Below are positions 4,282-49,389 of a stretch of 49,389 nt of DNA, piece by piece (position 1 is the stretch's first letter; every line of letters begins with the position of its first letter). The position numbers and the translations under genes were made by a program. The notes under the pieces are model-generated. The model was given only the letters and a program-made list of their open reading frames with translations. It was not told the DNA's origin and ran no database searches. This DNA comes from a virus. The stretch is taken from positions 1 through 49,389 of IMG/VR virus record IMGVR_UViG_3300050821_001146. The stretch is one strand, 5' to 3'.

Positions 4282-4754
4282 GCTAACCTCGTTATCTTTG
4301 CCCATACGTCGGCATCGTTTGGCAAGGTCTTCATGAACAATCGCATGAATTTGCCGCCAGTTGGACTGAGATCAATCCTGTTATTGAATGGCGATACCGT
4401 TGTTGGGACAAGGGTATAAGCTGCTGCAACGGGAGTGATATAGAAAGCATCGGCATCGGTATCGGCCTCTTGAACGTCAATCTCAGCGACACCGGGAGTG
4501 GAATCGAAATGGACTTCAATGCACACCATTGGAGGCGGCATCCCCTCGAAGCCAGCCTGTAGATTGACGGCAATGGAAGCGGTGCCAGCGGCAACCTCTT
4601 CGACAGCCACATTCGTGTCATTGACGGGAAGTTGAGTGGCGCCAGCAGCGAGAGTGCCCCACACGTAGCAAGACTCTCCCTTTTGCAAGGCGATGGGAGA
4701 GATGTTGGAAGTGACTGGCGCTGTGGCTCCAAGCGCCCCTGGATATAGTGGCAT
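4278..4754 (-). CDS. Beta-rich minor structural protein (158 aa)
   Basis: The ATG at 4754 overlaps the terminase stop (TAATG) with GGGAGG upstream, so an earlier in-frame ATG is rejected. The sequence is Thr/Val/Ala rich with alternating strands (VCIEVHFDSTPGVAEIDVQ) and few charges, like small capsid- or tail-associated beta proteins. The terminase-adjacent position supports a virion role. A decoration or head-completion protein is possible but unproven. Confidence 0.65.
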   Translation of the reverse strand: MPLYPGALGATAPVTSNISPIALQKGESCYVWGTLAAGATQLPVNDTNVAVEEVAAGTASIAVNLQAGFEGMPPPMVCIEVHFDSTPGVAEIDVQEADTDADAFYITPVAAAYTLVPTTVSPFNNRIDLSPTGGKFMRLFMKTLPNDADVWAKITRLA

Positions 4755-24657: not shown

Positions 24658-25179
24658 TTAGAAGTGAAGTGTTGGGCCTACGCTAACAATTGCCGTGTTG
24701 TTCTGAAGACCTGGGAGCTTGGCATACCTCACCTCTGCCCCAAAGGTCCAATGGCCACTGCCAGTGAGATCGTAATTGACGCCCCCGCCAGCCAAGACAG
24801 CATAATGTGACTTGGTGGCATCGGTCTTGACGGCAGGAGTGATTCTATCTATCCCTACGCTTGCAGTGAGATAGAATTGAAACCTTTCCCCATTAAGAGT
24901 GGGGCTGGCATTGTTCAGCTTGTGGCTGATGATGGGGAGCCTGTAATTGAATCCCCCGAAGAATCCCTGGAAGTTATTCCCCGGAGCGATGATGTTGTCG
25001 TTGCGGAGATCGAACTTATCCGTGACTGTGAGAGCCATCCCAGCCAAGGTCCCCGCCACTGTCTGCTTACCGCCAGGCAAAGCGATTGGCTGGGCAGTCA
25101 AGGCGAAGGTGGTAGACTGGGCCTGGGCACCGATTGCCATTCCTATTACCATTACCATTCCAATCAATATCCTCTTCAT
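24658..25179 (-). CDS. Outer-membrane beta-barrel protein with signal peptide (173 aa)
   Basis: The Shine-Dalgarno is AGGAGA. The signal peptide is MKRILIGMVMVIGMAIGAQA. The mature part alternates polar and hydrophobic residues in about eight strands (FQGFFGGFNYRLPI, RFQFYLTASVGI, SHYAVLAGGGVNYDL, WTFGAEVRYAKL) and ends in Phe (VGPTLHF), the usual signal for the barrel assembly machine. By analogy with phage proteins such as Lom it could alter the host surface or block superinfection. Its place in the lysis cassette is striking. Confidence 0.72.
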   Translation of the reverse strand: MKRILIGMVMVIGMAIGAQAQSTTFALTAQPIALPGGKQTVAGTLAGMALTVTDKFDLRNDNIIAPGNNFQGFFGGFNYRLPIISHKLNNASPTLNGERFQFYLTASVGIDRITPAVKTDATKSHYAVLAGGGVNYDLTGSGHWTFGAEVRYAKLPGLQNNTAIVSVGPTLHF

Positions 25180-25869: not shown

Positions 25870-26172
25870 TTATCTCCTTACCTCATCAATTTTCAAAGCT
25901 ATCTTCTGCCCTTCGGCAAATGTGGCATTGTCGAGCTTGAGCTTAACGCCGTCATTGCACTCTAATATCAAATAGATGTCATTGTGATCTGGATAATTCT
26001 TCTGCTCATGCTTTGCTTCACAGACAAGAGGCTTGCTCTTTGATACCTTTCCTGCCTCCAATGAGAATTGCAATTGCGGAGGAATGAATGGCGTTGCTTG
26101 GACTTCAATTTGTCTCGCCTGCGGCGCCAGGGCTGGGAGAGCCACAAGCAATAGCGCAGTGAGAGCTTTCAT
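25870..26172 (-). CDS. Exported small protein (100 aa)
   Basis: GGGAG precedes the ATG. The signal peptide is MKALTALLLVALPALAPQA. The mature part is an alternating charged/hydrophobic beta domain (DIYLILECNDGVKLKLDNATF) with two cysteines. It opens the lysis cassette. The function is unknown; a periplasmic accessory of lysis or of the tail proteins encoded just upstream is possible. Confidence 0.6.
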   Translation of the reverse strand: MKALTALLLVALPALAPQARQIEVQATPFIPPQLQFSLEAGKVSKSKPLVCEAKHEQKNYPDHNDIYLILECNDGVKLKLDNATFAEGQKIALKIDEVRR

Positions 26173-26185
26173 TTCTGTCTCCCAA

Positions 26186-28687
26186 TTAGTAATGTATTAT
26201 ACAGGATGCCCCTCGGTAAATAGTCAGCAAATCAGCTACAGTCGGATCGACAACCTGCAAACTGAGAACCGTTCCTGAAGCTGAAGCACCCTCAATCCTT
26301 GCATGAATGTGGAAAGGGAATTTAGTTCCGGCTGCGCCAAGCGTCCATGTCCCGCCTATGCTGAACGTCGTGGTGGTCGAAGCTGTATCTGTCGTGGCCC
26401 CAAAACCGCCAACAGCCGCAGCCGTGCCCATTGCGTAGCTTGATGTGACGTTCGTTGCGCCATTCGTTGCGGTTATGAGGTTCCAGTTGTTCGCGGGCGT
26501 TCCAGTCGTCGAACTGACTACGCCATCGCAGTCCAGATCGTAGCTTAAGGCCACAAGGGGTAACGTAAAGGTCAGTGGAGTCACAGTGGCCCCGACAATC
26601 GTGGCTGTCACGCAGGTTGAAACCGTGCCGCCAGTTCCGCACGTCCAATCTGCAAGGAATGTCACGCGAGATTGGCCTGAACTGCTCGTCCAAATACCGT
26701 TTAGGTAAGTGACGATTGCTCCAGTTCCGCTCGCCGCTGCTGGGGTCGTTTGGGTGCAATCGTTGCAGTAGACCGAGTTTCCGGCGATGGCGTAAGGGGC
26801 CAGATTGGCAAAGGTCGTACCCGTATCGGCTTGATTGCCCCAGCGCACGACGGCGACGTTGTTCGCGGCGTTGAAAAAGTAATTCGTGCTGTTAGAGTAG
26901 TGATTATTATTTACGAAAGTGATGTTCGTTCCATTGTTGAGGTACGATCCAATATTCCAACCCGTGACCATGTTGTTTTCATACGTCATACTTGTGTTGC
27001 TTGGCAGGTACATACCATTGCTGCCAGTCGCGCCACCGTTCGTCTGCACGATCATGTTGCCGTCCACGATGCCGCCAGTCGAGCTGGTAATCTCAACACC
27101 ATTGACGTTTGATGGAAAGCTTCCGTAGAGCATGTTGTGAGAGACTGTAAATCTGGTCACGCTCGCCACATAAATATATCCCGTAGCCGGCGGCACGGGC
27201 AGGTAGTTTGGAGGGTAGGTGCCAGCCGCGTTTGTTGTCACACCATAGCAACTGTTGTCCAAAATTCGTACATCGGTGATACTTGCGCCCGCCGCTTCTA
27301 TACATTGAGCCATGTTGGTTATCGTATTGCCCTGAATCGTAAAATCAAAGTCGGTGTTTCCAACGATAATGCCAACAGCAGAGACTGAGCCATTTCCGCC
27401 AGAACTGGCCGTATTTCCATCCATTGTGTTGAAAGAAAAGCTTACATCGTGATTTTTACTGCCGTGCGAGTTGATGCAGTCATCGGCGCAGCCGTGGAAT
27501 TGATTGTGAGAAAAGTCGATGTGCGCGGACTCTAGGGCAATGTCCAATTCTCCTGACTTATAAAACGAATTATTCTTCACGCTGAGAAATGCGGAGTTGT
27601 TTGCTTGAACTGGAGCGCCAGCCTGCCCGGTCTGCGTGTACACATCGTTAGCGTTATAAAATGAGTTATCCAAAACCTGTAGGTACTTGCTCTGAAAATC
27701 CTGCACGGCTCCGTAGCTTTTGCCCATGTAGAAGAACGAATTAGCTATCGTTCCATTTAGCCAGAACTCGAAGCTGATGTCGAAGCCGGTGCATTCCCCA
27801 GGAGCGGCACAGTCCGGCCCGTTCGTCACGGAGATATAGGAGAAGTTCAGATACATCGGGGTGATCTTAGCGACCTGCCCCAAGCCAGCTGTCGTGTAGT
27901 TGGCGCTCAATGAATTGGCAAGACGCAGATGCGTGCCGTCCGTGATACCGGCCACGGTGTCGATTTGCTGCAATTCGTTGTGGCAGGAGAGGGAGGCGGG
28001 TGTAAAAGTCGTACAGCCTGCCACGCCCGTGTTATCCATCACCAACAACCAATCGCCTGCCAGCAATCCAGTTGTCGAGGTGACGGTCATTTGGATGTCA
28101 CCGGCGTTGCCGTTCGCCGTCAGGGTTGTCGTGGTCCCAAGTGTTTGTGTGCCATTCGTGAACAGTGGAGTGGTGTCAAAATCCTTTTGGATGATCGACG
28201 CTGGGCCGACTCCCAAGACGAGAATGGGCGTCTTTACGGGGAAGGTAATACTGGACTTTATGCGCACGCAACCGGCAGGAAAGAACAGCGTGCCTCCCCC
28301 TGTAAGTCCTGTAGGCATGGCAGCAATTGCCGATTGAACCGCCGCCGCTGCATCAGCACTACAATCAAGCTTCGCTCCATAGGCAGACACGTCGTACCAG
28401 GGAACAGGCCCCTTAAACTCCGCATTGCCAGTTGCGGTGAGTGCCGTAAACGTCCCGGCTGCTGGCGTCGTCCCTCCAATGGCACCGGGAGAGGGAATGC
28501 TACCAGAATTGAAAGCTCCAGTAACAGTTAATGTTGTGAATGTGCCAGTACCGCCAGCTATTGGGAAATTCTGTTGCTGCGCCGGCATCCCAAATATCTC
28601 TCGAATGAATTCCAGTGAAGGTTCAGGAGGCTTGGCCCATGCTGGCGCTGCACATAATAATAAAATGAATATCAATATCCTTTTCAT
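26186..28687 (-). CDS. Tail spike-like right-handed beta-helix protein with signal peptide (833 aa)
   Basis: AAGGGGA and an ATGA overlap define the start at 28687. The signal peptide MKRILIFILLLCAAPAWA is followed by a short linker with the fibre-type repeat IGGTTPAAGTFTALTATGN. Next comes YDVSAYGAKLDCSADAAAAVQSAI and GGTLFFPAGCVRI, the standard opening of pectate-lyase-like beta-helix spikes. Many N-x-F/I turns follow, and a C-terminal beta-sandwich. It probably binds or cleaves host surface polysaccharide. A Sec signal on a tail spike is unusual. Confidence 0.75.
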   Translation of the reverse strand: MKRILIFILLLCAAPAWAKPPEPSLEFIREIFGMPAQQQNFPIAGGTGTFTTLTVTGAFNSGSIPSPGAIGGTTPAAGTFTALTATGNAEFKGPVPWYDVSAYGAKLDCSADAAAAVQSAIAAMPTGLTGGGTLFFPAGCVRIKSSITFPVKTPILVLGVGPASIIQKDFDTTPLFTNGTQTLGTTTTLTANGNAGDIQMTVTSTTGLLAGDWLLVMDNTGVAGCTTFTPASLSCHNELQQIDTVAGITDGTHLRLANSLSANYTTAGLGQVAKITPMYLNFSYISVTNGPDCAAPGECTGFDISFEFWLNGTIANSFFYMGKSYGAVQDFQSKYLQVLDNSFYNANDVYTQTGQAGAPVQANNSAFLSVKNNSFYKSGELDIALESAHIDFSHNQFHGCADDCINSHGSKNHDVSFSFNTMDGNTASSGGNGSVSAVGIIVGNTDFDFTIQGNTITNMAQCIEAAGASITDVRILDNSCYGVTTNAAGTYPPNYLPVPPATGYIYVASVTRFTVSHNMLYGSFPSNVNGVEITSSTGGIVDGNMIVQTNGGATGSNGMYLPSNTSMTYENNMVTGWNIGSYLNNGTNITFVNNNHYSNSTNYFFNAANNVAVVRWGNQADTGTTFANLAPYAIAGNSVYCNDCTQTTPAAASGTGAIVTYLNGIWTSSSGQSRVTFLADWTCGTGGTVSTCVTATIVGATVTPLTFTLPLVALSYDLDCDGVVSSTTGTPANNWNLITATNGATNVTSSYAMGTAAAVGGFGATTDTASTTTTFSIGGTWTLGAAGTKFPFHIHARIEGASASGTVLSLQVVDPTVADLLTIYRGASCIIHY

Positions 28688-31182
28688 GGCAATGTTCCCC
28701 TTGAAAATCCCGGTGCTCCTACAATCGAACTCTTTGTGAATGCTTTTCCTATAGCATCTAGGAGTGGATATTGTGGACGCCCTGATCCCACATTGTCCCA
28801 TCCTAAAACCCAGATAACCCATCCTCCAAGCCCATTGTTTATAACGTGATTTACCTTGTCGGTGACGGATTGGGGATTCTCGAATGTAAGATAGCAAGGG
28901 GTAATGGAAAACGGACAATCAACATCGGAAAGCGGCACCCACGCCGTCTTTGCTGCCGAATCGTATGAAGCTGCACTAATATTAAAGAAAGCAGCAAGCG
29001 TTCCATAGCCAGTGTCGTTGCCTTGTACCGCTCCTGACCGAAACGCTTGCCGAGGCCCTGAATTGGCTTCTTCAATATCGCCATAGAATGCTATTCCAAT
29101 GAGGATCTTGGAGGCCGCTGCCCCGCAATTCTCAATTGCTTGGACCAGGTAATCATCGCTCCATAGATATTGTCCTGGATCGCTAAACAGTGGGTTATTG
29201 AACCAAGTATAGGGATTGCCACTTCCAGGACCGGCTGCAACGCCATAGCCGAGAACGGAGATCTTGTCGAGATAATTTAGCTGGGTCAATGTGTAGCCCA
29301 TGCTGGGAGAGCCACAGACAGGCACAGGCGGTCCACTCCAATTCACCTGACTATCATTGGTCGTGGCAAGGAGAATGGCCGAGCCAAGTGCTGCGCGAAA
29401 TCCCGATAAGCATGCCGTCACATTGCTGGCATTCCAAGCCTCTTCATAGTCGAAGTCAACACCATCGAATCCATAGGTATTGACATCGGACATGACATTG
29501 GCGATGAAAGCAGCGACATTGCCGGCACCACAAGCCCCATTGAAATGGGTCGGCCCTCCAATCGAAGACAATCCATAGAGCACTTGCACTCCATTGGCGT
29601 GGGCTGCCTGAATCAAGTTCACAGCCAATTGTCCATTATTCCAACTGCCAACATGAGAAAGCGATCCATCGGCATTGGGTGATGCTGCAATCATGGCGAC
29701 ATGGGTAAGTGCGGACCATTGGATATTGGAGAGTGGCGTTGGCTGTCCACCAGGAGTGGAATTGGGATAGTAATATCCTACCGACCATACCTTCGCCGTG
29801 GCCGGAGGATTGGCAGCAGGCTTGAATGCAATGCCAATGTCTGCCCATCGCCCTCCATTGGGTGTCATTGTGGAATTGCCTGTCGTGGCGCCAAAAGCAT
29901 AGAACGTCGCCGCAGTAACACTATAGGTGGTAGCGGTGCCATTCGTTGTCAGTGTGCAGGAATAGCTTCCGACACTTGTAAGGATTCGATAGGCAATCTC
30001 CTGGGAGCCGTGGGCCACATCAGTGCAGCCGCCACCAGCGCCGGCAAAACCGGGGCCGGAATATCCGGTATCAGAAGCCACGCAGATATAGATTTCATTT
30101 GGCTGTGTCGTTGTGAGCGTTGGGCAGGTGAGTGTCGTGGCTGTCGTATGGACATAAGTGGACCCTGCTACATTGGCAATCTGATCCAAGGTGTTAGCGT
30201 TGGTAAGCTCAAGGTAATAGACCCCGGCATAATTGAGAGTAGGGCCGACGATATGATTGGTCGTGTTGCCTTGGACTGTTGGCATGGTCCCGCCCGTCAA
30301 AATGGTATGGCCCCAGATGTATTGCTTGCCAAGATTGTCACTTGTGGTGACTGGGTTCGTAAGCTGAGTCAAAACGGTGCCATCAGATACGGTTGGAGGG
30401 CTTGTGAAATCCCCTGCCGTTCCAGAGGGATTCGTTCCCCCTACCGTGAATAGATAATCAAACTTCTGCGTCGTGGATAGATTGGCGGGATTACTGTCGC
30501 TGGTGGTATTGCTGCTATCATTGTAGCCGTTCTGGAAGATGGCGGGGACGGTGGTTCCGCTTCCCCCTGCCAATTGATATTCCTCTAATGTATAGCCAGG
30601 ACCAAAGGTGTCGGTCTCGGCGGCGGTCCATCCTGCACCGGCAACCATTGGGGAATTGGCTCCAAGGCCAGCGCCAATCAGGAGATCCCCAGCACTGACA
30701 GCGTAATTGCCGCTTGTAGCACTGGCAGCAGTACCACTACCGCAGAGACCGGGACCATCAATGACACCTACCCCTGACATTGTAATGACATTAATTGCCG
30801 TGAGGCCACTGACTCCGGTATTGAAGGTGACGGTATCACTCGCGCCATTTGCTGCCGTGGTCTTGTAATACCATAATGCCGTATGCTGGGCCGTGGCAGG
30901 TGTGGCGCATTCGCCCCAGAAAGTCCATCCATAGGTCGCGGTATTCGTAAGCATTCCAGCCGTGATCGTGGTGTTGGTATTGGTGGACCCTTGGGCAATG
31001 AGCATTTCAGCGTTGGGATAGCCAGTTGAGAACGTCGTCCCTATCGTTGTGACGGCCCCGCCGCTGCCTGTGTTCTTGCAGTCGAAGACGAAGCCGTTGC
31101 CGATGAGCGTGTGAGGACAGGTCTGCGCCCATGCGGAGGGGACGCAGAGCAGGAATCCGATAATGGCTATGTACTTTCTCAT
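28684..31182 (-). CDS. Tail fibre-like protein with C-terminal GH18 glycosidase domain and signal peptide (832 aa)
   Basis: The ATGA overlap fixes the start. The signal peptide is MRKYIAIIGFLLCVPSAWA. Residues 20-455 are Thr/Gly-rich beta domains. From about 464 (AKVWSVGYYYPN) a GH18 barrel follows, with FDGVDFDYEE carrying the catalytic DGxDxDxE (573-580, E580 the acid), and a C-terminal GGWVIWVLGWD as in GH18 enzymes. These hydrolyse chitin or N-acetylglucosamine-containing glycans. It may degrade a GlcNAc-rich capsule or chitinous biofilm. Confidence 0.85.
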   Translation of the reverse strand: MRKYIAIIGFLLCVPSAWAQTCPHTLIGNGFVFDCKNTGSGGAVTTIGTTFSTGYPNAEMLIAQGSTNTNTTITAGMLTNTATYGWTFWGECATPATAQHTALWYYKTTAANGASDTVTFNTGVSGLTAINVITMSGVGVIDGPGLCGSGTAASATSGNYAVSAGDLLIGAGLGANSPMVAGAGWTAAETDTFGPGYTLEEYQLAGGSGTTVPAIFQNGYNDSSNTTSDSNPANLSTTQKFDYLFTVGGTNPSGTAGDFTSPPTVSDGTVLTQLTNPVTTSDNLGKQYIWGHTILTGGTMPTVQGNTTNHIVGPTLNYAGVYYLELTNANTLDQIANVAGSTYVHTTATTLTCPTLTTTQPNEIYICVASDTGYSGPGFAGAGGGCTDVAHGSQEIAYRILTSVGSYSCTLTTNGTATTYSVTAATFYAFGATTGNSTMTPNGGRWADIGIAFKPAANPPATAKVWSVGYYYPNSTPGGQPTPLSNIQWSALTHVAMIAASPNADGSLSHVGSWNNGQLAVNLIQAAHANGVQVLYGLSSIGGPTHFNGACGAGNVAAFIANVMSDVNTYGFDGVDFDYEEAWNASNVTACLSGFRAALGSAILLATTNDSQVNWSGPPVPVCGSPSMGYTLTQLNYLDKISVLGYGVAAGPGSGNPYTWFNNPLFSDPGQYLWSDDYLVQAIENCGAAASKILIGIAFYGDIEEANSGPRQAFRSGAVQGNDTGYGTLAAFFNISAASYDSAAKTAWVPLSDVDCPFSITPCYLTFENPQSVTDKVNHVINNGLGGWVIWVLGWDNVGSGRPQYPLLDAIGKAFTKSSIVGAPGFSRGTLP

Positions 31183-34100
31183 GCGGATGGCGCAGTCCAA
31201 GTATGGTAGTAGACGATCAAGCGAATTTTCCCTGCGCCTGCATTCGCGTTGGTTGTTACACGCACCTTCGCGGCAGCAGTTTGGCGAGGTCCAGATGTTC
31301 CGGTTTGATCGGCCTGCACAAAGCAAACTCCCGTAGAACCTGCCGTCAATCCCCCGGAAGCTCCGCAGGGGGTTGCTGATAATGCCCCTGAAAAGCGCCC
31401 CGATATGGTTGCGTCTCCAATTTGAAAGGTGACCGCAGTCGTAATCGTTACGGTCACGCGATAGACCACCGCATCAATGATAGCGTTGATTGGCAGGCAA
31501 TTTAACCCAGTGTCGGTTGTCGTCGCTATCGTTGAAAGGGTCGTGACTGCGTAGGTGGTTTCGCAAGCGCTTGTGGAATTGGATTGAAGCGAACCAAACA
31601 AAGCGTCTGTGGTATTTGCGGTCTGCGCTTGAGATGTGTTCACCGCCGCCAAGTCTGGAGTCGTTGGGGAAACAGGTGCTCCCCCTGCATCCAAATAATT
31701 ATTTCCGGCCACGTACACATTATTGATCAGTGTGCTTGGGGCAAACTTCAGTAAGTTGGTGGCATTTGAACTATTTGAAGATGAATCTACGCCGATGATG
31801 GAACCAAAAATTGTAGCTTGGCCGCCGCCGCCGTTCCAATAAATCCTGCAAATTGCCTGGCCGCCTAATCCATACATTCCGCCGATAACATTCAGAGGCC
31901 CCGCCGGTTGGTACTCTATGCATGCTTTATCCGCATTGGTATGCGCACTTGTGAAAAAGTGATCGTCGATAAGAGTGACCGGCTGCGATGCGCCAGTGAA
32001 AGTGACTTCCAGAAATCTGTTGGATTGCTCGCTGTGGACGCCCTGAATTAGCACCGCTCCAGCAAATCCAGATAAATAGAAATCCGCAACCGTGTTGCCC
32101 GACACCGAACCGCCAGTCCAGGTAAAAGGAGCGCCAGGGGAGTCTAGGACAGCTTCCGCCCCGACGTTGAAGCCAGCGCAGTTGTTTCCGGTAAACGTGA
32201 CCGTGCCGTATTGCGTATTTGCAATGTAGAAGCAAGCGGTTCCGTAGCCATATACCGTATTGCCGTAAAATTGCATCCCATCATTGTTTCCATTTACTAC
32301 TGCACCATCGACCATCGCAAAACCGTACGCGCAGGTACCTCCCAGTCCACTACAGTCAATTGAATTGTTAAAGAATTGATTGAATTCCGAAACTCCAAAC
32401 CCAGCGCCGGTGTCCTCTTGAATCTGGAATGCAGTCCCAATCGGAAAAGCGCCTGACGCTGAAGTGATCCAGAAGCTTTCAGTTAGGACACTTTCGTCCG
32501 TGGAATACAGGAAGACAGGATTGCCCGCACCACCCTTCCAGAGCACTCCTCCACCTTCGATTGTGGCTCCGCGTACGTTCTGAACGGTGATGGTATTACT
32601 GAGCACGCAGCGTTTATTTGTCGGCCAAACAACCTTCGCGCCGTACGTCCCAGCGAGAGTGGCATAGGCTGCATTGATGATCGTCGTGTCGTCGGTCGTG
32701 CCGTCGCACTTGGCCCCAGTTTGCAGAATGTTCAATACATAGCCAGTGCCGATCACCGCACATTGGTAATTCGCGTTGTCCCAACTGTAGCAATAGGTCG
32801 TGGACGAGGGTGGGACTACCAATGTTGCCGCGAATGTCCCATTGTTCCCGGCGATCTGCCCCGCTGCTGGGGTGATCGTAGATATGGTCGTGGTTGCGTC
32901 CTTGATGCAAAACTTGAAATTGTTGTTGAAATTCGTCGTGCCAGCTTGCGGAAGTGAAATCGCTACCGCGCCGCCATTTGTTTCGAGAAGGCATGTGTCA
33001 CGATCTGCCGCTGCGACGGCATCCGAGGCGGCAGCGTTGGATCGTCCCTGACCACCAGGCCAGCACCAAACAGGAGCCGCAGCCCCGCCACCGGGAGAGC
33101 ATAGGAAGCCATTGACCCCGGTAGGGCCAGTGAATGCCGGGAGCCTCGTCGGAGCCGGTCCAGAGTTCTCGTAGAGCGTATCCCCTACCGTAGTCATCGG
33201 GTTGGTGATGGAATTGGCAATGACGAAGGCATCGGTGGCAACCTTGGTTGTATTATCTGAGAGGGATTGCGTTGTTGCTGTCGTTCCGTTGGGTAGGCCG
33301 GTGACAGTTGATGGGCAGACACCGGGACCACCACCAATGACTATTCCATTGGCTACAAGTGATGCGCTGGATGCTTCATTGGTCGTGGAGGTGAAGCAAG
33401 GGATACCGCCAGAGATCCCCCCAGTCACAGTGACAGGAAAGGCTGTGCCACCGGCAGCACAGGGAGCCCAGCTTCCCTGTTGAGGACTGCCACCATCGGT
33501 TATCAGGCATTGGCCATTGGTACCTGTCAGTGTCGGGAAATTAAATCTACTGGGCGAGCCTGCTATGGCTGCCACCCCTAAAGTGAGGGTACCAGATGTT
33601 GCCCCACCAATCGACATGGCGCCGTTTGCAAAGTTGAATGTACCGCCACCACTCGCAGAGGCATTTATAGCAGTTGAAAAGACATTGGCAACACGTTGCA
33701 TTGTAAATCCACATACAGAATTAGAGCCAATACATAAGGTCCCATTATTGGTGCCATCATTGAAATAGATATTGAAATTGCCGGATGCGGGGATGGTCTG
33801 AATGAAATTGGTGCTATTGCCAATGGATAGAATGTTGCCGAGAAATGTTAGGGCATTGCTACAGGAAATGGTATTGACACCAGATCCCACGGCCACCTGA
33901 TTCGCCGCACAGGTCCCGCCAATGGACCCACCTCCACCCCCAGGGCCGCACGATGCCACCATTCCGACAACGCAATCAACTGTGATCTGGCGCACCGTTG
34001 TCGTAATGCCAGAGCCGTAGTATTGGACGTAGTAGACACCAGGAACAACGCCGCCATCGTAATTGCCAAGACCATCGGCAGTCAATGGATTGGCTGTCGT

Positions 34101-34568
34101 TGTCACAAGACTGGCATCGGTATAGACGGTGGAGAGACCGGCGCAAGACGTGACGCTGTTACCGAATTGCAAGAGGGTGCCATTAGTCCCGGCACTCGCA
34201 TTGGCATGGGTAAGCGATACCGTCACCGTTGTGGTTGTGACTGCGAGTATGGTGAGGCCGTTGGTGAGGACACCGTTGGCCAATGTCCCGGCATTGAGGT
34301 AGGTATCGCCGGCAGTGAAGCCGGCCACTTGGACAGTCATCCCATTCACAAAGCCAGCGGTAATGGGATTGGAGGTCATGGTAAAGACAGCGAGATTGGA
34401 CGTGACCGATGCTGCGGTAGTGGCAAGCGGTTGGCAGACAGCTATGCTTGTGCCGCCAGCAGGGAAGCCTTGGCGATTAGAGACCCAGGGATTCTGAGTG
34501 AGCTTGCCGCCCTGGGCAAAGACAAGGGATGGTAATAGTAAGAGTAATGGTAATAGGAAGCGTTTCAT
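31179..34568 (-). CDS. Giant tail fibre/spike protein with signal peptide (1129 aa)
   Basis: The ATGA overlap fixes the start. The signal peptide is MKRFLLPLLLLLPSLVFA. The N-terminal 230 residues end in a Gly-rich hinge (GPGGGGGSIGGT). Fibre-like repeats follow up to about 600. Then a beta-helix begins with GAKCDGTTDDTTIINAAYATLAG and VVWPTNKRCVLS, as in pectate-lyase-type spikes, and a C-terminal sandwich closes the chain (IRLIVYYHTW). It is a likely receptor-binding or depolymerising protein. Cysteines are frequent, suiting an oxidising compartment. Confidence 0.75.
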   Translation of the reverse strand: MKRFLLPLLLLLPSLVFAQGGKLTQNPWVSNRQGFPAGGTSIAVCQPLATTAASVTSNLAVFTMTSNPITAGFVNGMTVQVAGFTAGDTYLNAGTLANGVLTNGLTILAVTTTTVTVSLTHANASAGTNGTLLQFGNSVTSCAGLSTVYTDASLVTTTANPLTADGLGNYDGGVVPGVYYVQYYGSGITTTVRQITVDCVVGMVASCGPGGGGGSIGGTCAANQVAVGSGVNTISCSNALTFLGNILSIGNSTNFIQTIPASGNFNIYFNDGTNNGTLCIGSNSVCGFTMQRVANVFSTAINASASGGGTFNFANGAMSIGGATSGTLTLGVAAIAGSPSRFNFPTLTGTNGQCLITDGGSPQQGSWAPCAAGGTAFPVTVTGGISGGIPCFTSTTNEASSASLVANGIVIGGGPGVCPSTVTGLPNGTTATTQSLSDNTTKVATDAFVIANSITNPMTTVGDTLYENSGPAPTRLPAFTGPTGVNGFLCSPGGGAAAPVWCWPGGQGRSNAAASDAVAAADRDTCLLETNGGAVAISLPQAGTTNFNNNFKFCIKDATTTISTITPAAGQIAGNNGTFAATLVVPPSSTTYCYSWDNANYQCAVIGTGYVLNILQTGAKCDGTTDDTTIINAAYATLAGTYGAKVVWPTNKRCVLSNTITVQNVRGATIEGGGVLWKGGAGNPVFLYSTDESVLTESFWITSASGAFPIGTAFQIQEDTGAGFGVSEFNQFFNNSIDCSGLGGTCAYGFAMVDGAVVNGNNDGMQFYGNTVYGYGTACFYIANTQYGTVTFTGNNCAGFNVGAEAVLDSPGAPFTWTGGSVSGNTVADFYLSGFAGAVLIQGVHSEQSNRFLEVTFTGASQPVTLIDDHFFTSAHTNADKACIEYQPAGPLNVIGGMYGLGGQAICRIYWNGGGGQATIFGSIIGVDSSSNSSNATNLLKFAPSTLINNVYVAGNNYLDAGGAPVSPTTPDLAAVNTSQAQTANTTDALFGSLQSNSTSACETTYAVTTLSTIATTTDTGLNCLPINAIIDAVVYRVTVTITTAVTFQIGDATISGRFSGALSATPCGASGGLTAGSTGVCFVQADQTGTSGPRQTAAAKVRVTTNANAGAGKIRLIVYYHTWTAPSA

Positions 34569-36064
34569 CGCTTACGCCCCTTTATCCTGATATTCTCATT
34601 GGAGTAGTATGGATCTGGATTGGCATTCCTGCCAGCATAGATGGTTCCGCCGACACTGGCACGCTGCTTAGACATTTCCCATTCAGCGGCAGCGCGAGCC
34701 TTTTCCTCATCGGAGAGCCCGAGCCAAGCCTCCCGAGACATGCCAAATGGACCGGCAGCCCTAGCCTCGGCAGCAGCCCTGGCAGCTTCCAGGGTGGCAC
34801 GATCACCAGAAGGGGCTGGTGCTGTCGCTGGGATGGCCGCTCCTGGCGTTCCTGGGGCCGTAGGAGCGACTTCTCCTGCTGGCTGGGGGTTTGCCCTCAC
34901 CCTAGCTGCCCGAGCCGCCCAGGGAGGCTCCTGTGGCGGAATTGGAGTTCTCGCCGGAGGTGGAGGAGCAGCCTCGGGAACGGCACTCTTCCAGGCCGGG
35001 GCATTCGCCCGAGGAGGAATTGGACCTGGATTCCTTATCACCGCAAGGTCAGCAGGAGGGATCTCCTCATTACGGGCATTCCTTGCTGCCGCCAAATCCT
35101 GATACATTTCTTGGCGACTGCCAGCCCTTCCTTGACGTTCAGCAGCAATATCCCTATTCATTTCATTATAACCACCAGCACGAGCTTGCCGTTCAGCAGC
35201 AATATCCTCGCCCATTTTACTGTAGGCACCAGCCCGTTCTTGTCGCCCCGCAGTAATGTCCCTATTCATTTCATTGACAGCCCCAACACGAAATTGATGT
35301 CCCTCTGCATGTTCCTGTTCCATTTCAGCATTAGCCGCAGCCCTAGCTTGTCGTTCTGCCGCAATATCGCTTTCCATTTCAGCGTGGGCACGCATCGGCA
35401 ATGGTGCTGGTGCTTCCCCTCGCCTTGCAATATCGCTCTCCATCTCAGCATAAGCACGTTGCGGCAATGGCAATTTCTCTGCATAGGGATCAGGAACCTT
35501 GGCTTGTGCCGGCGTTATCAATCCACCTTTAATATCGGAAGCCCTTTGAGCTAATTTCCGCTCCGTCTGAACAGCAGCATAATCTTCAGGGGTAGACAAA
35601 TATCGGCCAACAAAAGGCATTCTGGCTATTGTTTTGCCTCCAAGGAAAGGACCAACAACAGCCCCGCCGCGCTCTCCCCATTCCTCTCCAGTCTTAGCCC
35701 CTTCCTCGCCACCAATAAGATGACCGGCCCATCGCCCTCCATATTTACCAACCTGGGAAGCACCGAATGATTTCACGACCCCACGAGCCGCTGCCATTGG
35801 ATTGAGTACCGCCGTCGCCCCCATTACCCCTGCCGCAGCCCCGGTATTACCTTCATTCGATTGCTTTGTAGTCAATGGTGCCACTTGCTCTCCAAATGCC
35901 CCTGTCTGCATTGGTTTAATTGGAGGGGCCGATGCTGTTGGATTCGCCGCTTGAGCAGCTTCAGGATTGGAAGGTTCGACATCCTTCCATTCACCCTCTT
36001 TCTCTTCAACATCTGTCCATCCATTATCTGCCAACTGGCACCTGCCTGTATTCCGTCTTGCCAT
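34565..36064 (-). CDS. Internal virion-type protein with tandem 18-residue repeats (499 aa)
   Basis: The sequence is rich in Ala, Pro, Glu and Arg. Between about 215 and 345 seven imperfect repeats of about 18 residues follow the pattern (A/N)-x-EM-x-x-DIAAERQARAG, predicting a long charged helix. Pro-rich segments follow. ATG at 36064 lies inside the upstream gene without a clear ribosome site; TTG at 36034, behind AGGTG, is a good alternative start. The position fits an ejection or internal core protein of short-tailed phages. Confidence 0.55.
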   Translation of the reverse strand: MARRNTGRCQLADNGWTDVEEKEGEWKDVEPSNPEAAQAANPTASAPPIKPMQTGAFGEQVAPLTTKQSNEGNTGAAAGVMGATAVLNPMAAARGVVKSFGASQVGKYGGRWAGHLIGGEEGAKTGEEWGERGGAVVGPFLGGKTIARMPFVGRYLSTPEDYAAVQTERKLAQRASDIKGGLITPAQAKVPDPYAEKLPLPQRAYAEMESDIARRGEAPAPLPMRAHAEMESDIAAERQARAAANAEMEQEHAEGHQFRVGAVNEMNRDITAGRQERAGAYSKMGEDIAAERQARAGGYNEMNRDIAAERQGRAGSRQEMYQDLAAARNARNEEIPPADLAVIRNPGPIPPRANAPAWKSAVPEAAPPPPARTPIPPQEPPWAARAARVRANPQPAGEVAPTAPGTPGAAIPATAPAPSGDRATLEAARAAAEARAAGPFGMSREAWLGLSDEEKARAAAEWEMSKQRASVGGTIYAGRNANPDPYYSNENIRIKGRKR

Positions 36065-39089: not shown

Positions 39090-39258
39090 TGGGAATAGCT
39101 CCTATGAATATAAATCTACCAGTCTTCCCACCCTTTTCATCTATATCCCTGTGCATTTGACAGAAGAAATATTTCGATCCATCAGGCAATGTTTTTATCC
39201 ACTGCGCCCAATTAATGCATGGACCTTCATAAGCAGTGCATTGGCATAATTTCATCAT
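39064..39258 (-). CDS. Small zinc-type protein (64 aa)
   Basis: ATGATGA overlaps the stop of the nozzle-like gene. CQC near the start, a further Cys at residue 14 and FFCQMH at about 33 form a possible four-ligand metal site. The rest is alpha/beta (GRFIFIGAIP). It overlaps the next gene by 26 bases. No family was recognised. Confidence 0.55.
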   Translation of the reverse strand: MMKLCQCTAYEGPCINWAQWIKTLPDGSKYFFCQMHRDIDEKGGKTGRFIFIGAIPNATEYPQS

Positions 39259-41795
39259 GCATTAGTTCCCCGCACAACGAATGTAGGATGCTTCTTCATT
39301 GACAATATCAATTGCTCCATTGAGAACCACGATCCCACGGCATTGGTCCCAACTTGAATACTAAACCTCTCCCCGGCCACTTCAACTCCACGCTCTCCAT
39401 CCCCGAGCGTTGTAAGGCCAAGGATATATCCCCTCAAATTCGTTGTCCTTCTTGTCGTGATAATGGCAATAGATAGAATTCCATTGCCAGTGGCCCTCCA
39501 CTTCAAATAGCCCAAGAGCTTCTGATGGGCTCCTAATTGAACTATCTGTTCCTCAACGTGACTGGGAGCATAATAGGTAGAGTAGAATGAATTGATGGCG
39601 ACTCCATCATCAGATGCCTGTACCTGTGGAGGCAATTGCTCATAGATCTTGCCATTGCCAATACTATTGCCGTAGAATGGCTGGACGGTGCCATCGGCTC
39701 TCTCTGCAAACGTCATGGATGCCGCAGCAATGTTCCAAACCATCCAACGCCGGCCACGGCCATGGGCGAGGACCTTCCCAGTAAAGGCGCTATAAGTCAC
39801 CATTGGAGAGCCCGCAATATCAGCAGCACCATCAAGCCATTTGTAATCGAGCATGAAGACAGTATTGGGTAATACGGCATTCACTCCAATTGGAACACCG
39901 ACAAGGATTTGCTTATTCACTTTGTCGATGCGGACCCAGATGGATTGTGACGATGCCCAATTGATGCTGTTCCAACATATCTTCCCCGTCTTGCTCGCAT
40001 CCTGCTGGATCTCGGGAGTGATCTTGACGGGATCTGATCCCCAGAAGATATACAATCCACTTCGCTCTGCAAAGACAGCCCATTCCTCTGTCCAATCAAC
40101 GGCATTGGGACCGCAGATACCAACCGTGGCGCTAACCTCATTGACAGCCCATGATGCAGGTTCATTCAGGCCATCGTCAGTGACATAGCAAAGGTAATGA
40201 TCCTTGCCAAAGTAGAAGTTATTGCGAAGGGGGAAGCTGGCGTGAAGTATCTGGCCATCGTTGGGCCTGATCTGGACGGAGCCAGTTGTGCCATCGTATG
40301 ATTCTGGATTGAAGGAATGGCTGAACCTTACTGTCGAGAAATTGTAAGGTTGATTCGTCGGGAATATTTCGATTGAATCTACCAGGAATACGCCGGCATT
40401 TGTGGGAGTTCCATCGGCATAAACTTGCAATACAAGACCAGATGGAACAGGATTGTATGGCGCATCAGTGATAGTGGCTATGAACTCAGTGTAAACATCG
40501 CCGCTTAATTGGCCCGCCGTCACGCTAAGTCCAACCGTCGTAAGGCCACCGCCGCCAGTATCGTGGAGATTGATATGTAATGTACCCTGTGTTAACATAT
40601 TGGCTTTTGCTATGCGGGCTCGCACAGAATACGAAGTATTGGCAGCGATAATTGGGACGCCTAACCAATCTTGCCATGCGCCTTGATTTATTAATCCGCG
40701 CTGAGCGGTGATGCCATCGCCAGTAATGGTATAGGCATCCTGCCAGTCACCCAAAGAACCACCGGCCACAGCGGAGCCGCCACCGGCATTGTGGGTAGTC
40801 CAACCGTAGGGTGTAGCACCGTTAAATCCACCATCAAATGTCAAATTGGAGAAATTCTGCACCTTATTGCGCTCTCCAAGCCATGCCAATCTGCTATTGT
40901 ATCCACCAACGGAAGCGCATTCTCCAAGTTCAATTTGAGTGAAAAGATACTGGGCATTGAAACTGGCAATGAGAATGGAGTCAAGGAAATCTAGCGTTAT
41001 GGTCGTTGTTGTGTTATCTGAAATTACCATTATCGTTGGCGTAGCCAGTTGCAATGTCCCAGTTGGGGTGGAATAGAATGTCCCAGTAAAAGCAGGGGGA
41101 GTGATTACTGGAGTGAACATGATAAGACGGCCAACGATATTTGCAGGACCTATCGGTATCCCAGCAAGATCGACTTGATGCGCTCCGTTCGCTGTCCAAG
41201 CAATTGGAGGAGATGGCTGCGTAATGAATCCCTGCCTTGTAATAAACGATACTGTGACTTGATGTTTACCAGCAACGATATTGCCTGCCGTCGCTGAATT
41301 CACCGCCGTCATTATACCGACAATAGAACCAGGGCCAACTTGGCTTACCCTGTCCCAATTGGTGTCATCGTACTGACGTGGAATGTCCAGCCCCAGCAAT
41401 GGATCGGTATAGGCATAATAAGCTGAGTATTCACGTCCAAACAAAGTGGTAGCTTGATAAAGAGTCTTGGCCCCAAATATGCTATTTGCAACCGTTGTCA
41501 ATGTGCCATCGGGAGACTCTTTATAGAGATTGCCAAGACTATCCCACACCATTAGCCTGCGCTGTATTTGTGGAGTGAGATAGGTCTTGAGGCCATTGAT
41601 AGTGGCATTGGCAGGAATACCATTGCCTGGGCCAAAGACAGCGAGTAGCCCTCCCCTCGTTGTGACGGCACCTTCAGGGAAATCGCAGTCCTGGGCCAAG
41701 GGAGAAGCACCCGGAGGGCACACGGTAGGCGCGAGCGCGGGAGTAAATCCACCCATCACTTCTAATGGCAGATCGACAAGATCTTGAGTCAGCAC
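39255..41795 (-). CDS. Tail nozzle / tubular-B-like protein with a jelly-roll insertion (846 aa), GTG start
   Basis: GAGG is spaced correctly before GTG. Length and beta-rich content, with WD-like strands (LYIFWGSDPVKIT, IWVRIDKVNKQILVGVPIG, WMVWNIAA), fit a beta-propeller tail nozzle as in T7-like phages. Residues about 314-480 form a separate jelly-roll resembling CBM4/9 modules (NFSNLTFDGGFNG, then GVFLVDSIEIFP), probably glycan-binding. It lies after the connector genes, as expected for the distal short tail. Confidence 0.65.
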   Translation of the reverse strand: MLTQDLVDLPLEVMGGFTPALAPTVCPPGASPLAQDCDFPEGAVTTRGGLLAVFGPGNGIPANATINGLKTYLTPQIQRRLMVWDSLGNLYKESPDGTLTTVANSIFGAKTLYQATTLFGREYSAYYAYTDPLLGLDIPRQYDDTNWDRVSQVGPGSIVGIMTAVNSATAGNIVAGKHQVTVSFITRQGFITQPSPPIAWTANGAHQVDLAGIPIGPANIVGRLIMFTPVITPPAFTGTFYSTPTGTLQLATPTIMVISDNTTTTITLDFLDSILIASFNAQYLFTQIELGECASVGGYNSRLAWLGERNKVQNFSNLTFDGGFNGATPYGWTTHNAGGGSAVAGGSLGDWQDAYTITGDGITAQRGLINQGAWQDWLGVPIIAANTSYSVRARIAKANMLTQGTLHINLHDTGGGGLTTVGLSVTAGQLSGDVYTEFIATITDAPYNPVPSGLVLQVYADGTPTNAGVFLVDSIEIFPTNQPYNFSTVRFSHSFNPESYDGTTGSVQIRPNDGQILHASFPLRNNFYFGKDHYLCYVTDDGLNEPASWAVNEVSATVGICGPNAVDWTEEWAVFAERSGLYIFWGSDPVKITPEIQQDASKTGKICWNSINWASSQSIWVRIDKVNKQILVGVPIGVNAVLPNTVFMLDYKWLDGAADIAGSPMVTYSAFTGKVLAHGRGRRWMVWNIAAASMTFAERADGTVQPFYGNSIGNGKIYEQLPPQVQASDDGVAINSFYSTYYAPSHVEEQIVQLGAHQKLLGYLKWRATGNGILSIAIITTRRTTNLRGYILGLTTLGDGERGVEVAGERFSIQVGTNAVGSWFSMEQLILSMKKHPTFVVRGTNA

Positions 41796-45156: not shown

Positions 45157-46413
45157 TTAGTATCCGCCGACTGGTAATGCCAAGCCGTCATAGAACAAGC
45201 CTGCCCTGGGAAGGTCCATGAAGACATTGAAAACTGTATCAAAGTAGCAAAGGTAACCTGCCAGCAAACCTCCGCTCTGTCCATACAGCTGGAATGTCGT
45301 CTGCCCTCCAAGTTCAAACATATCGACTTCCTTGGTAACGCCCCTGCCCCAGTGTTTCAGGCAAATGACATCAATGCGCTGAATGGTGGCATGGATGGAA
45401 GTCTTGATGGGGATGCCGCCAAAGGTCTTGGGAGGCCGGCGAGAAAGCATGTCGGGAGTTGATTCGCCTTTCTGCATGGCGCGAATGTCGGTGGTCACAG
45501 CCACATTGACATTCTCCCATGCAGCTTCCTGGTCAACATTCATGAATGCGACCATGGGCTCATCGAACTCGATCCCAAGGACACGACGGAGCTTGTTCTC
45601 GCCAAGGCGCCGCAAGGCTGGGGTGATAATGGCAGCACCGGCAGCGACGTGTGGAGTCTTCAAGGTCTCGGGATATGTGGAACGGGCAAGGTTATTCCAT
45701 GACCCCGAAGATGAATCGACGTGATTGTACAGGAGACCTTCAAGGGAAACGGGATTCGCCCCGCCAGCGCCTTGGCTGATATTGAGGACAAGAGCATCGC
45801 CAGCAACGGTCCCGGCAGGGGCAGCATTGACAGTGATGGTCTTCAGCAAGGGATCGACTTGGGTCACTGTGGCAAGGCCGCGAGAGGCCGATGCCAGGCC
45901 AGCAGGATAGACTTGAATATCCTGGTTAAAATAGAAGATGTTGGGATTCGTGACGGTAAATGTGGTACCAGCGACAGTCACGATGGAATCGAGAGTGCCG
46001 GTGCCATTTGTCTGGTAGATGCAATCAAGGCCACGCTTGAACATCTTCATGGCCTCGGCCACTTCGCGGACAGCGACATCCTCTACAGCCTTGTCATTGC
46101 CCTTCGTGGCGTATTCGGCGAGCTTTGATACCTCGAAGGCGAACCTGAAATGGAGAGTGGAAAGAGTGCCCACGTCCCAGGTTGACCCAGAGCCGCGCCC
46201 CATATCATCGAAATCAGCGGTACCTTGGCTGAATTTCCCGCCAGGACGCATCAGGATCGGCAACCTAATGTTCCTGGTGCTGGCGTCGATCACATCGCCG
46301 CGCTTATCAATCATGTCGAGCAGGATGTGTTCCTGTTCGTAGGCGGTAGGAACGGTCTTCCTGACCTTTTCAAGTTGTAGTGCTACTGACTGGATATTGG
46401 ATGGAGGTGCCAT
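45157..46413 (-). CDS. Major capsid protein, HK97-like (418 aa)
   Basis: AAGGAGA precedes the ATG. It has a helical N-terminal arm (SVALQLEKVRKTVPTAYEQEHILLDMI) and a spine-helix region (DVAVREVAEAMKMFKRGLDCI). An inserted beta domain of about 145-215 (VTVAGTTFTVTNPNIFY, then KTITVNAAPAGTVAGDALVLNI) is probably an Ig-like insertion. The A-domain has RRVLGIEFDEPMVAFMNVDQ and ends in LPRAGLFYDGLALPVGGY. It forms the shell. It follows the scaffold gene by 12 bases, the usual order. Confidence 0.85.
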   Translation of the reverse strand: MAPPSNIQSVALQLEKVRKTVPTAYEQEHILLDMIDKRGDVIDASTRNIRLPILMRPGGKFSQGTADFDDMGRGSGSTWDVGTLSTLHFRFAFEVSKLAEYATKGNDKAVEDVAVREVAEAMKMFKRGLDCIYQTNGTGTLDSIVTVAGTTFTVTNPNIFYFNQDIQVYPAGLASASRGLATVTQVDPLLKTITVNAAPAGTVAGDALVLNISQGAGGANPVSLEGLLYNHVDSSSGSWNNLARSTYPETLKTPHVAAGAAIITPALRRLGENKLRRVLGIEFDEPMVAFMNVDQEAAWENVNVAVTTDIRAMQKGESTPDMLSRRPPKTFGGIPIKTSIHATIQRIDVICLKHWGRGVTKEVDMFELGGQTTFQLYGQSGGLLAGYLCYFDTVFNVFMDLPRAGLFYDGLALPVGGY

Positions 46414-46425
46414 CTCTTAATCTCC

Positions 46426-47754
46426 TTATTGGAGGCTCATTGAATGCTTCATAGCCTCAGTTGTCGTCATTCTGCGACCATCCTTGTGATACCATTGGTT
46501 ATTCACTTGGAATGGTCCTGTCGGCGTCTTGTCGCCGTTATCTTGCGTTGTCGCCTTGGCTGGCGGTCTCTGCCCAGTCCTATTTTGGACCGTTGTCCTA
46601 TTCGCATTGATAAGCTGCGGAGTCTCTACTTTCAGGACATCCCTTATCATGCGATTGAGGAGCCATTCCTGGCCCCAGAATTGCCTCTGTATCTTCGCAG
46701 CCTCCTCCATGTTACGAGACTGATATGCTGCCGTCAGCTTGCGCATGAAGGCAGGAGAATGACTTAGGAATTGTTCCATCTTGACGCGGACCTTCTCGGC
46801 AATATCGGAACGCTTTTGAGGCGTAATAGATTTCACCGTGGCGAGCTTTTGCATGAGACGATGACTCGCAACGACTTCACGTTGGAGCTTGACATTCTCT
46901 TGGCCGAAGGTGGTATCGAATTTCCTTTGATCCTGCTGATTCGTGGTGTCACGTTCACGCTGGAATCGCTGGCGCTCTTGATTCAGTCTCTCTTCATTGG
47001 CATCTGGCCGGCGTTCTTCAACGAACGGTGACAGCCTATTGAGGATCTTGTCGAGTTGAGGGACGATACCCTTTAATCCCTCCGTCGCGGCAGCATGATC
47101 CCTTAACTCTACCAATTGCTCCCATGAGCCCGTCCCGGTGAGCGTCGCTCCCACAATCTTCCCCATGACATCGTTATAACTGTCACGGTCAAGGCGCGCC
47201 CACTCCTTTGGAAGGGTCTTAAATAGAGAGACAGCGGCATCACGATCAGATTCAAAGATGTTGGATATTAACTTGGAATGGCCAGAGTAATTGCCATCCT
47301 GGTCACGGTTGTAAGTGAGATTGTCTATGCCTTCAATTTCCTTGACATCCTCTTCAAGAGCCTGAACGTCCTGTAGACCGTTAGGGAAACGCTCACGCAT
47401 GGCTTTCGCTTCGGCCACGGTGGGGAATACATCACGATAGGCAGCTTCCCGGCGAAGGGGAGCTTCTATTGCGTCACGTACCTTTGGATTGGTAAGAGCC
47501 TTCCCAAGTTCGGGAGATAGTTTGACGAGATTACGAATGCGATTGGAGACGTGGCCACGGAAGTCTTGGACCTCGGGCTCCTCCTGCGGATGCTGCGTCG
47601 TAGTCTCGGGCGGCTGTTCTGCTGGAGTCTGAGTCTCCGGTGGCGCTTCTGTCGTAGTCTCGGGTCCAGTTCCAATATCGAAATCAAGTCCAGTATCGGC
47701 TCCCGTTGACACCGATTCTGTTCCTGGTGTTACTGTCGCGCTATCGTCAAGCAT
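46426..47754 (-). CDS. Scaffold / capsid assembly protein (442 aa)
   Basis: Its ATG overlaps the portal end by 8 bases. The N-terminal 70 residues are acidic and Pro/Glu/Thr rich (ETTTEAPPETQTPAEQPPE). Long helices follow, with a coiled coil about 270-310 rich in Gln/Arg (EERLNQERQRFQRERD). A basic C-terminus follows with Trp/His/Lys-Asp (NNQWYHKDGRRM). Position between portal and capsid genes and this composition are typical of scaffolds. No protease motif was noticed. Confidence 0.75.
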   Translation of the reverse strand: MLDDSATVTPGTESVSTGADTGLDFDIGTGPETTTEAPPETQTPAEQPPETTTQHPQEEPEVQDFRGHVSNRIRNLVKLSPELGKALTNPKVRDAIEAPLRREAAYRDVFPTVAEAKAMRERFPNGLQDVQALEEDVKEIEGIDNLTYNRDQDGNYSGHSKLISNIFESDRDAAVSLFKTLPKEWARLDRDSYNDVMGKIVGATLTGTGSWEQLVELRDHAAATEGLKGIVPQLDKILNRLSPFVEERRPDANEERLNQERQRFQRERDTTNQQDQRKFDTTFGQENVKLQREVVASHRLMQKLATVKSITPQKRSDIAEKVRVKMEQFLSHSPAFMRKLTAAYQSRNMEEAAKIQRQFWGQEWLLNRMIRDVLKVETPQLINANRTTVQNRTGQRPPAKATTQDNGDKTPTGPFQVNNQWYHKDGRRMTTTEAMKHSMSLQ

Positions 47755-49389
47755 TTGACGGTCCCTTCTCGCCCGAAGGCGGTTGTCCTGGCATCGGCTT
47801 AGGCTCTGGCTTGGCCGCTTTCTCCAACATGACTTTATTGATGAAGTCCTGCGGAGTTAATTCAATCCCCATCTTGGCCAAGAGTTGTGCTTGACCTTCA
47901 GGTGGTATGTCCTTGAAATTTGTAGTGAATGTCTCAGACAATGGCTTCGTCGGTGGCGGGGGCTGTGGAATAGCCTGGAGATGCTGTTGCATGTGCTGTT
48001 TAATCGCCATCCATGCCATTGGATTCTCTAATTTGAGTTTCTGTCCCTTGGAGCTATTGAGGTAGCTCTTGCAGGTGCCAGCCTCGACTTCGTGCTCATC
48101 AACTTCGGGATCAACTTCCACCATGGGAACGCCGCCCATTGGCTGCTGTTCGGTTGGCGTCAAGGATTTAATGATCTCGCCAATCTCCTTCAATTGCTTA
48201 CGGCGGGAATCAACGCCAGGAATCTTGAGATCGGGAATGCCAGTCAATTTGCCGAAGAGTTCGGCATTGTCGGCCTCTTTGACGAGCTGAGGGCCAAAGG
48301 GAGAGTCCATGATCTGCGTCATGGTGGCTCTTTGTTGATTCCACAATTCAGGGAAATTCTCATCGCCTTCAGGATAGGCTTCGGCCTCGCCTTCCATGGC
48401 GGTAACGTCAACGCTATCGGATTCAAAGTCGCCAGAATCGCCAAGGACGGGAGATTTCACAACGCCATCAATATTCTGTTCAAGAGTGCGGCAAGCCAAA
48501 GTAAGAATGTCAGCATGAGCCTGTTTAAGATTGACATAGAAGACTCCCATGCGGCCCATGGCTTGATCGCGTTGCATTGCCTGTTGCCCTAATGTTTCCG
48601 GCGTCGAGCCCGGCGCCGATGCCCCAGACAGGGCAGGGTAAGCTCCACTAATCTCATCACTGACAGGACCCATTAATTGCTGTTCGTGGGCTTGCATCGT
48701 TGGGGACGCGGTATCAGCACGAACCTGCATGATTCTATTTTGGATCTGAGCCCCAGGCTGCAAATAGACTTCGACTTCAAGGCCAGGTGCCGATCTCTGG
48801 TCCTCATCTGCATCAGCATTCCACGTATCACTCGCCCTATATGTGATAGGAATGCCATATTCATAGGTCTCGGCCTCAATGTTAGAGAAGGTATTGACAC
48901 GATCTTGAATGGAGAGCATTGCTGTGCCAATACCAGGACGATGCTGGCCACGGCCAGGCATGACGTGGGTAGTGACAACGCAATCGTCCATGGATTGAGC
49001 TTCACTTTTGAGGTAGGTTGAGCCGCAGAGTTCGACGCGGCAACCGCGAGGGAATAGCTGTAGCAATTCCTCTCGCTTGGCCTTGTCATCAATCATCCAG
49101 AAGGAAGAGGGGCGAAACCAAACTACAGCGTAGGTGCAGAGGGCAGACTGGGCAGATCCAGTCTGTGTCAATAATTTGGTATTCTCTGCCACGCTCAATC
49201 TGGCGTTACGTTCAAATGAATCGTCAGCCCCGAACGCCAGGCCCGGCTTAATCTCATCAGCCTTTTCGTCAAATGCCGCCCGAAGAGTGCTGTAATGTAC
49301 TTCTCTCTCAATGGCGAAATAATGGAATTCGGATTGGTCTTGGACATGCTGTGGACGCTTACAGTTAAGTGCGCCGTAGACTGAGATGA
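47747..49389 (-). CDS. Portal protein, C-terminal part (continues from base 1-908)
   Basis: This holds residues from the join to the end of the 817-residue portal; bases 49293-49389 repeat 1-97. It contains the stretch ALCTYAVVWFRPSSFWMIDD, the clip and wing regions, and the long helix region after SIQDRVNTFSNIEAETYEYG. A helix and loop follow (LGQQAMQRDQAMGRMGVFYVNLKQAHADI). The C-terminal part is acidic then Pro/Gln rich (QQHLQAIPQPPPP, MPGQPPSGEKGPSNA), probably a flexible barrel extension. The stop overlaps the scaffold start. Confidence 0.85.
   Translation of the reverse strand, partial: ISVYGALNCKRPQHVQDQSEFHYFAIEREVHYSTLRAAFDEKADEIKPGLAFGADDSFERNARLSVAENTKLLTQTGSAQSALCTYAVVWFRPSSFWMIDDKAKREELLQLFPRGCRVELCGSTYLKSEAQSMDDCVVTTHVMPGRGQHRPGIGTAMLSIQDRVNTFSNIEAETYEYGIPITYRASDTWNADADEDQRSAPGLEVEVYLQPGAQIQNRIMQVRADTASPTMQAHEQQLMGPVSDEISGAYPALSGASAPGSTPETLGQQAMQRDQAMGRMGVFYVNLKQAHADILTLACRTLEQNIDGVVKSPVLGDSGDFESDSVDVTAMEGEAEAYPEGDENFPELWNQQRATMTQIMDSPFGPQLVKEADNAELFGKLTGIPDLKIPGVDSRRKQLKEIGEIIKSLTPTEQQPMGGVPMVEVDPEVDEHEVEAGTCKSYLNSSKGQKLKLENPMAWMAIKQHMQQHLQAIPQPPPPTKPLSETFTTNFKDIPPEGQAQLLAKMGIELTPQDFINKVMLEKAAKPEPKPMPGQPPSGEKGPSNA
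49293..49389. repeat. 97-bp terminal direct repeat, right copy
   Basis: Exact copy of 1-97. When it is collapsed, the portal reading frame is continuous. This supports a circular or circularly permuted genome of 49,292 bp. Confidence 0.95.

Follow-up and report, generated by a model that had tools for sequence, protein, structure and literature searches.

Signal peptides (SPs) on the tail spikes and sugar-cutting proteins of a group of soil viruses, and of their chromosomal relatives, suggest export from the cytoplasm ahead of any contact with the viral particle. The DNA stretch analyzed here, referred to as the window, is an IMG/VR virus record of 49,389 bases, in which the structural genes are found on the minus strand (Table 1). 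An initial annotation had pointed out three tandem open reading frames (ORFs) of 1129, 832 and 833 residues, and their sizes and order are as it had given them. Its proposal that the starts are fixed by ATGA sequences also held, i.e., each start overlaps the stop of the preceding gene, and the Sec signal peptides that it had assigned were recovered in 3/3 proteins using a rule-based SP test. The description of all three as tail fibre or spike proteins was retained for the first protein (spike 1), for which a fold match to a docking domain was obtained, but not for the other two; protein 2 carries a GH18 glycosidase domain and the match found for protein 3 is marginal.

Table 1. Positions of the genes and signal peptides discussed in the text. 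The arrow marks the predicted cleavage site.
Feature	Position	Strand	Remarks
Spike 1 gene, 1129 aa	31179..34568	-	SP, N-terminal beta-sandwich and long variable region
Spike 1 SP, residues 1-18, MKRFLLPLLLLLPSLVFA↓QGG	34515..34568	-	ATGA overlap with the upstream 499-aa gene
Protein 2, 832 aa	28684..31182	-	SP 1-19; GH18 domain 468-795
Protein 2 SP, MRKYIAIIGFLLCVPSAWA↓QTC	31126..31182	-	ATGA overlap with the spike 1 stop
Protein 3, 833 aa	26186..28687	-	SP 1-18 by eye (AWA↓KPP), then GTFTxLTxTG-type repeats
Protein 3 SP, MKRILIFILLLCAAPAWA↓KPP	28634..28687	-	ATGA overlap with the protein 2 stop
499-aa gene	34565..36064	-	Directly upstream of spike 1; without SP
846-aa protein	39255..41795	-	Tail-nozzle-like by position; without SP
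Major head protein	45157..46413	-	phrog_14242 match; anchor for finding relatives
Portal homologue	1-908 and 47747-49171	-	Halves at opposite record ends
88-aa protein	1072-1338	-	SP-like start; 9 cysteines (10%)
583-aa protein	1608-3359	-	Clear SP (VNA↓QQ); between terminase and portal regions; no family match
173-aa protein	24658..25179	-	SP MKRILIGMVMVIGMAIGAQA↓QS
100-aa protein	25870..26172	-	SP-like N-terminus MKALTALLLVALPALAPQA
L064 spike-domain gene	3995-5002		Flanked by tail-tube-like and nozzle-like genes; phage contig of 70.5 kb
Chromosomal cluster loci (Acidobacteriota genomes)	L068-L078, L139-L147; e.g., L139 7605-19999, L143 2481-20000		

The SP rule, which is not a trained predictor, looks for a positive n-region, a hydrophobic h-region and small residues at positions -3 and -1, and all of these were found in each of the three window proteins. 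None of the head, neck and tail-tube proteins of the same window was SP-positive by the rule. Among structural coding sequences of the model podoviruses T7, Sf6, epsilon15, phiKMV, N4 and P-SSP7, 0/59 passed, whereas 16/16 first-spike-type genes did, which rules out chance as the source of the SPs. The rule also flags ORFs of 153 and 79 aa, i.e., its separation of SPs from transmembrane helices is incomplete. SP-like N-termini were also observed beyond the three genes, in window proteins of 100, 173, 583 and 88 aa. The gene for the 173-aa protein is flanked by genes for small membrane proteins on one side and, on the other, by that of a 138-aa protein, which is endolysin-like by eye and has no library match.

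A search with the major head protein identified 24 related contigs; in 14 of them the readable part of the tail region extends into the first spike gene. In all 14 of these podovirus-like contigs the gene encodes an SP that ends in A or G directly before Q, and the conserved mature domain follows. A profile of the spike domain yielded 22 viral loci, several of them from other phages, with an SP in all but one of those that were read, and a genome scan yielded 13 loci, all in Acidobacteriota assemblies. In an alignment of 48 homologues (24 phage and 24 chromosomal), A or G at -1, a small residue at -3 and Q at +1 are found in 48/48 sequences, an invariance that is partly by construction because the A/G-Q junction anchored the alignment. 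Over the same homologues the h-region identity is 0.26, compared to 0.20 expected from composition, while that of the mature domain is 0.45. Because the residues at -3, -1 and +1 are kept while the h-region drifts, selection acts on the properties of an export peptide and not on its sequence, and the assignment of these N-termini as Sec-type SPs under such selection is well supported by the sequence comparison. Three relatives had seemed to lack an SP; this was rejected, as a wrong start had been chosen in each. The sole SP-less homologue found is that of the L064 contig, where a Met is located at the position of the Gln at +1 and there is no room for an SP upstream; a search for further SP-less relatives of L064 returned none.

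These data bear on two other explanations of the hydrophobic N-termini. That translation in fact begins downstream of the hydrophobic segment, such that the SP would be an artefact of start-codon choice, is close to impossible; the mature domain can start directly, as it does in L064, but the ATGA overlaps speak against such a shift, as does the upstream sequence, which is open and SP-like in all other homologues examined. A hydrophobic N-terminus can also be an anchor, and cleavage is here a prediction, so that the segment could stay uncleaved and insert in the host membrane or form a hydrophobic element of the virion. This alternative is very unlikely, given that only A or G is found at -1 and only small residues at -3 despite the drift of the h-region, that the SP-less L064 protein begins at the cleavage position, and that the same arrangement is common to unrelated downstream proteins. 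The conserved signature, including the residue at +1, and the start of L064 likewise argue against a non-export role of the peptide, which the initial annotation had listed among three options.

The genes that follow spike 1 are cassettes without detectable homology between phages. Each of 13 mutually non-homologous proteins encoded downstream of spike 1 has an SP-like start, in 12 cases from the start codon first chosen and in one (L034_2) only from an earlier TTG; a fourteenth SP-like protein of this comparison (L043_x) sits elsewhere in its contig and is not counted among the 13. Between the first spike gene and the lysis genes, all ORFs of at least 300 aa are SP-bearing, including those without homology to one another. 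A predicted SP is thus carried by all of the unrelated cassettes in the spike slot, and the view that it is a positional trait is well supported at this level. Off the spike slot, an extra SP-bearing gene is found right after the nozzle-like gene in two relatives, L032 (7664-8281) and L040 (8311-9501).

Spike 1 displays features of a tailspike, i.e., a conserved N-terminus, a variable C-terminus and a gene within the structural block. No sequence similarity was detected to cultured-phage proteins or to solved spikes, and proteins 1 and 3 gave nothing significant in Pfam, PHROGs and PDB sequence searches. A Pfam search for a beta-helix or glycan-enzyme domain gave no hit in the window spike 1, while its relative L036 matches Pect-lyase_RHGA_epim (E 1.3e-7). 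The mature N-terminal beta-sandwich spans approximately residues 19-215, with an insertion of ~80 residues relative to most relatives. A first AF2 model of 217 aa (pLDDT 71) yielded only partial fold matches; the mature domain of a relative was modeled at pLDDT 82.5, with residues 1-96 mostly above 90. Structure prediction had been proposed as a check in the initial annotation, and in Foldseek the relative's domain was found to resemble tail complexes of the podoviruses Pan3 (probability 1.00) and Pam1 (7eeq_A, which we take to be the Pam1 spike domain; TM 0.56/0.64), though with probabilities of 0.93-1.00 none of these matches reached an E-value of 0.001, and sandwiches of the transthyretin/CarboxypepD type are common. 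The resemblance of the mature N-terminal domain of spike 1 to a podovirus spike-to-nozzle docking domain is supported by these models, as a likeness of fold only. In the 7eeq structure the spike is attached to the nozzle by its N-terminal domain (PMC13243795).

The most serious rival explanation is that all three proteins are secreted or periplasmic glycan-active proteins without a role in the virion, that the SP and the CarboxypepD_reg-like sandwich of spike 1 were captured from an Acidobacteriota envelope protein, and that the true spike is another gene. Weak Pfam matches to CarboxypepD_reg in 5/11 members are consistent with such an origin, as are many weak matches of the SP plus domain start to other Acidobacteriota proteins; furthermore, proteins 2 and 3 have neither a detected docking domain nor relatives in the phage group. 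However, all relatives have the spike 1 gene inside their structural cluster, and in the chromosomal copies it is flanked by head and tube genes. A conserved N-terminus followed by a variable remainder is the architecture of a tailspike, the fold matches include podovirus tail complexes, and L064 harbors the same domain without an SP amid structural genes. We consider this explanation unlikely.

The cysteine content of the first-spike proteins (median 2.2%) is higher than that of 93 other long proteins (0.53%), and nearly all SP-bearing forms have Cys at both position 25 and position 36 of the mature domain, which L064 does not. The initial annotation had taken the frequent cysteines to fit an oxidising compartment. 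The enrichment relative to other proteins of this phage is evident, but the ordinary tailspikes of Sf6 (2.1% Cys) and epsilon15 (1.7%), used as controls, are similarly Cys-rich and the Cys content alone is therefore no sign of such a compartment.

Protein 2 is, from its sequence, a GH18 glycosidase-domain protein and a predicted hydrolase. It matches Pfam Glyco_hydro_18 (E 3.6e-26) and has an intact DxxDxDxE catalytic motif (DGVDFDYE, residues 573-580), both of which it shares with GH18 chitinases; it differs from these in being a phage gene in the spike slot and in having an additional N-terminal region of ~450 residues. The GH18 domain was absent from 26 related viral records, and proteins 2 and 3 as queries against viral contigs found no relatives. 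Protein 3 gave a marginal match to the Rider domain of K1-lyase, a capsule lyase (E 0.012). A docking domain was not detected in either protein.

The window also encodes a terminase large subunit (phrog_979 match, E 4.5e-17) and a portal homologue, which has no library match and was named by its gene-order position beside the terminase and head genes. The locations of the portal halves suggest a circularly permuted genome that was cut within the portal gene. A GNAT-like gene (acetyltransferase-like, by eye) comes after the 846-aa nozzle-like gene, as it does in epsilon15. The head protein, the spike domain and the 846-aa protein have no match among cultured phages; the major head protein is 41% identical to one Acidobacteriota chromosomal copy. 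The phage is podovirus-like and its host is probably among the Acidobacteriota, the host assignment being drawn from the chromosomal relatives only. Simple joining of the record ends gives an out-of-frame junction in the portal gene.

In Acidobacteriota, contigs that reach 1.6 Mb harbor a podovirus structural cluster (terL, portal, head, SP-spike and tail genes) whose members have homologues in the window and are similarly ordered, and in some of these clusters cellular genes are interleaved (PilZ-response regulator, SpoU methylase, RidA-like). The SP is kept in 24/24 chromosomal spikes examined. An MCP homologue is found in 45/95 genomes of one order, the MCP distances track those of ribosomal L1 (Mantel r 0.75, n=30; maximum of 5000 permutations 0.32) and the median MCP dN/dS of the chromosomal copies is 0.18. 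The structural cluster is thus intact in cellular genomes and shows signs of vertical inheritance, as do gene transfer agents, and it looks like a candidate element of this type.

The best explanation of the data as a whole, to which we assign an even chance, combines Sec export and leader cleavage with a spike 1 that docks at lysis and with proteins 2 and 3 acting as free exported enzymes. During infection, all three proteins would cross the inner membrane via Sec, signal peptidase I would remove the leader, and the proteins would fold in the periplasm, separated from the tail machines in the cytoplasm. Opening of the inner membrane at lysis would bring mature spike 1 together with the DNA-filled particles, on which it would dock as the last assembly step, while proteins 2 and 3 would act as free glycan-degrading enzymes that aid release or open the surrounding matrix. 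Export and cleavage by the host machinery is the best-supported step, the export being well supported by the sequence data; the docking at lysis and the free-enzyme roles are what we infer beyond it. Of the options raised in the initial annotation, joining of virions at lysis is favored for protein 1 because of its docking-type fold, and action as a free enzyme for protein 2 because of its GH18 domain. Docking at lysis would require spikes that stay intact in the periplasm and then reach particles in a lysate in which both are dilute, which counts against it. In another reading, export is inefficient, such that a cytoplasmic part of each spike assembles normally and an exported part acts prior to lysis, e.g., on capsule or matrix. 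Such a dual pool fits all sequence data, and an extra soluble spike has been proposed for a gene transfer agent (PMC13420450), but the SPs look strong, with long leucine-rich h-regions that predict efficient export, and we regard it as distinctly improbable. Returning to export followed by docking, the more general statement that the spikes of the phage group and of the domesticated chromosomal cluster mature outside the cytoplasm, by Sec export, cleavage and periplasmic folding, and dock only once the inner membrane opens, is made tentatively, with somewhat less than an even chance.

The cytoplasm is understood to be where tailed-phage spikes are built, and no report of an SP-bearing tailed-phage spike was found in the open-access papers searched. 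Coat proteins of filamentous phages are virion proteins with Sec SPs and are assembled in the membrane during extrusion; in contrast, the terminase, portal and head genes of the window phage are those of a tailed phage. Like podovirus tailspikes (cyanophage Pam1; Sf6/P22 and epsilon15 types), in which the variable region is often enzymatic, spike 1 has a conserved N-terminal domain ahead of such a region and its gene is located late in the structural block; its N-terminal domain also gave the fold match to the Pam1 tail complex. By the same rule, however, no SP is present in the spikes of Sf6 and epsilon15, while the window spike 1 domain is preceded by an SP. The tailspike TspA of RcGTA is also a spike of a domesticated particle, has an N-terminal beta-sandwich and acts on matrix, but an SP is nowhere mentioned in its description (PMC13420450). 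Phage endolysins that use the host Sec system before lysis are known, i.e., fOg44 Lys44 and the SAR endolysins (PMC6116005); these are lysis enzymes, whereas here the signal is found on spikes and glycan enzymes.

According to a recent paper, soluble depolymerases dedicated to the biofilm matrix are not known from phages (PMC13420450). With a conserved export signal preceding a docking-type domain, one would expect either assembly in two compartments or a free extracellular pool of phage depolymerase. If the spikes do mature outside the cytoplasm, tail assembly would be divided between two compartments, and both outcomes have a bearing on the spread, within the soil matrix, of phages that infect the abundant and little-cultured Acidobacteriota.
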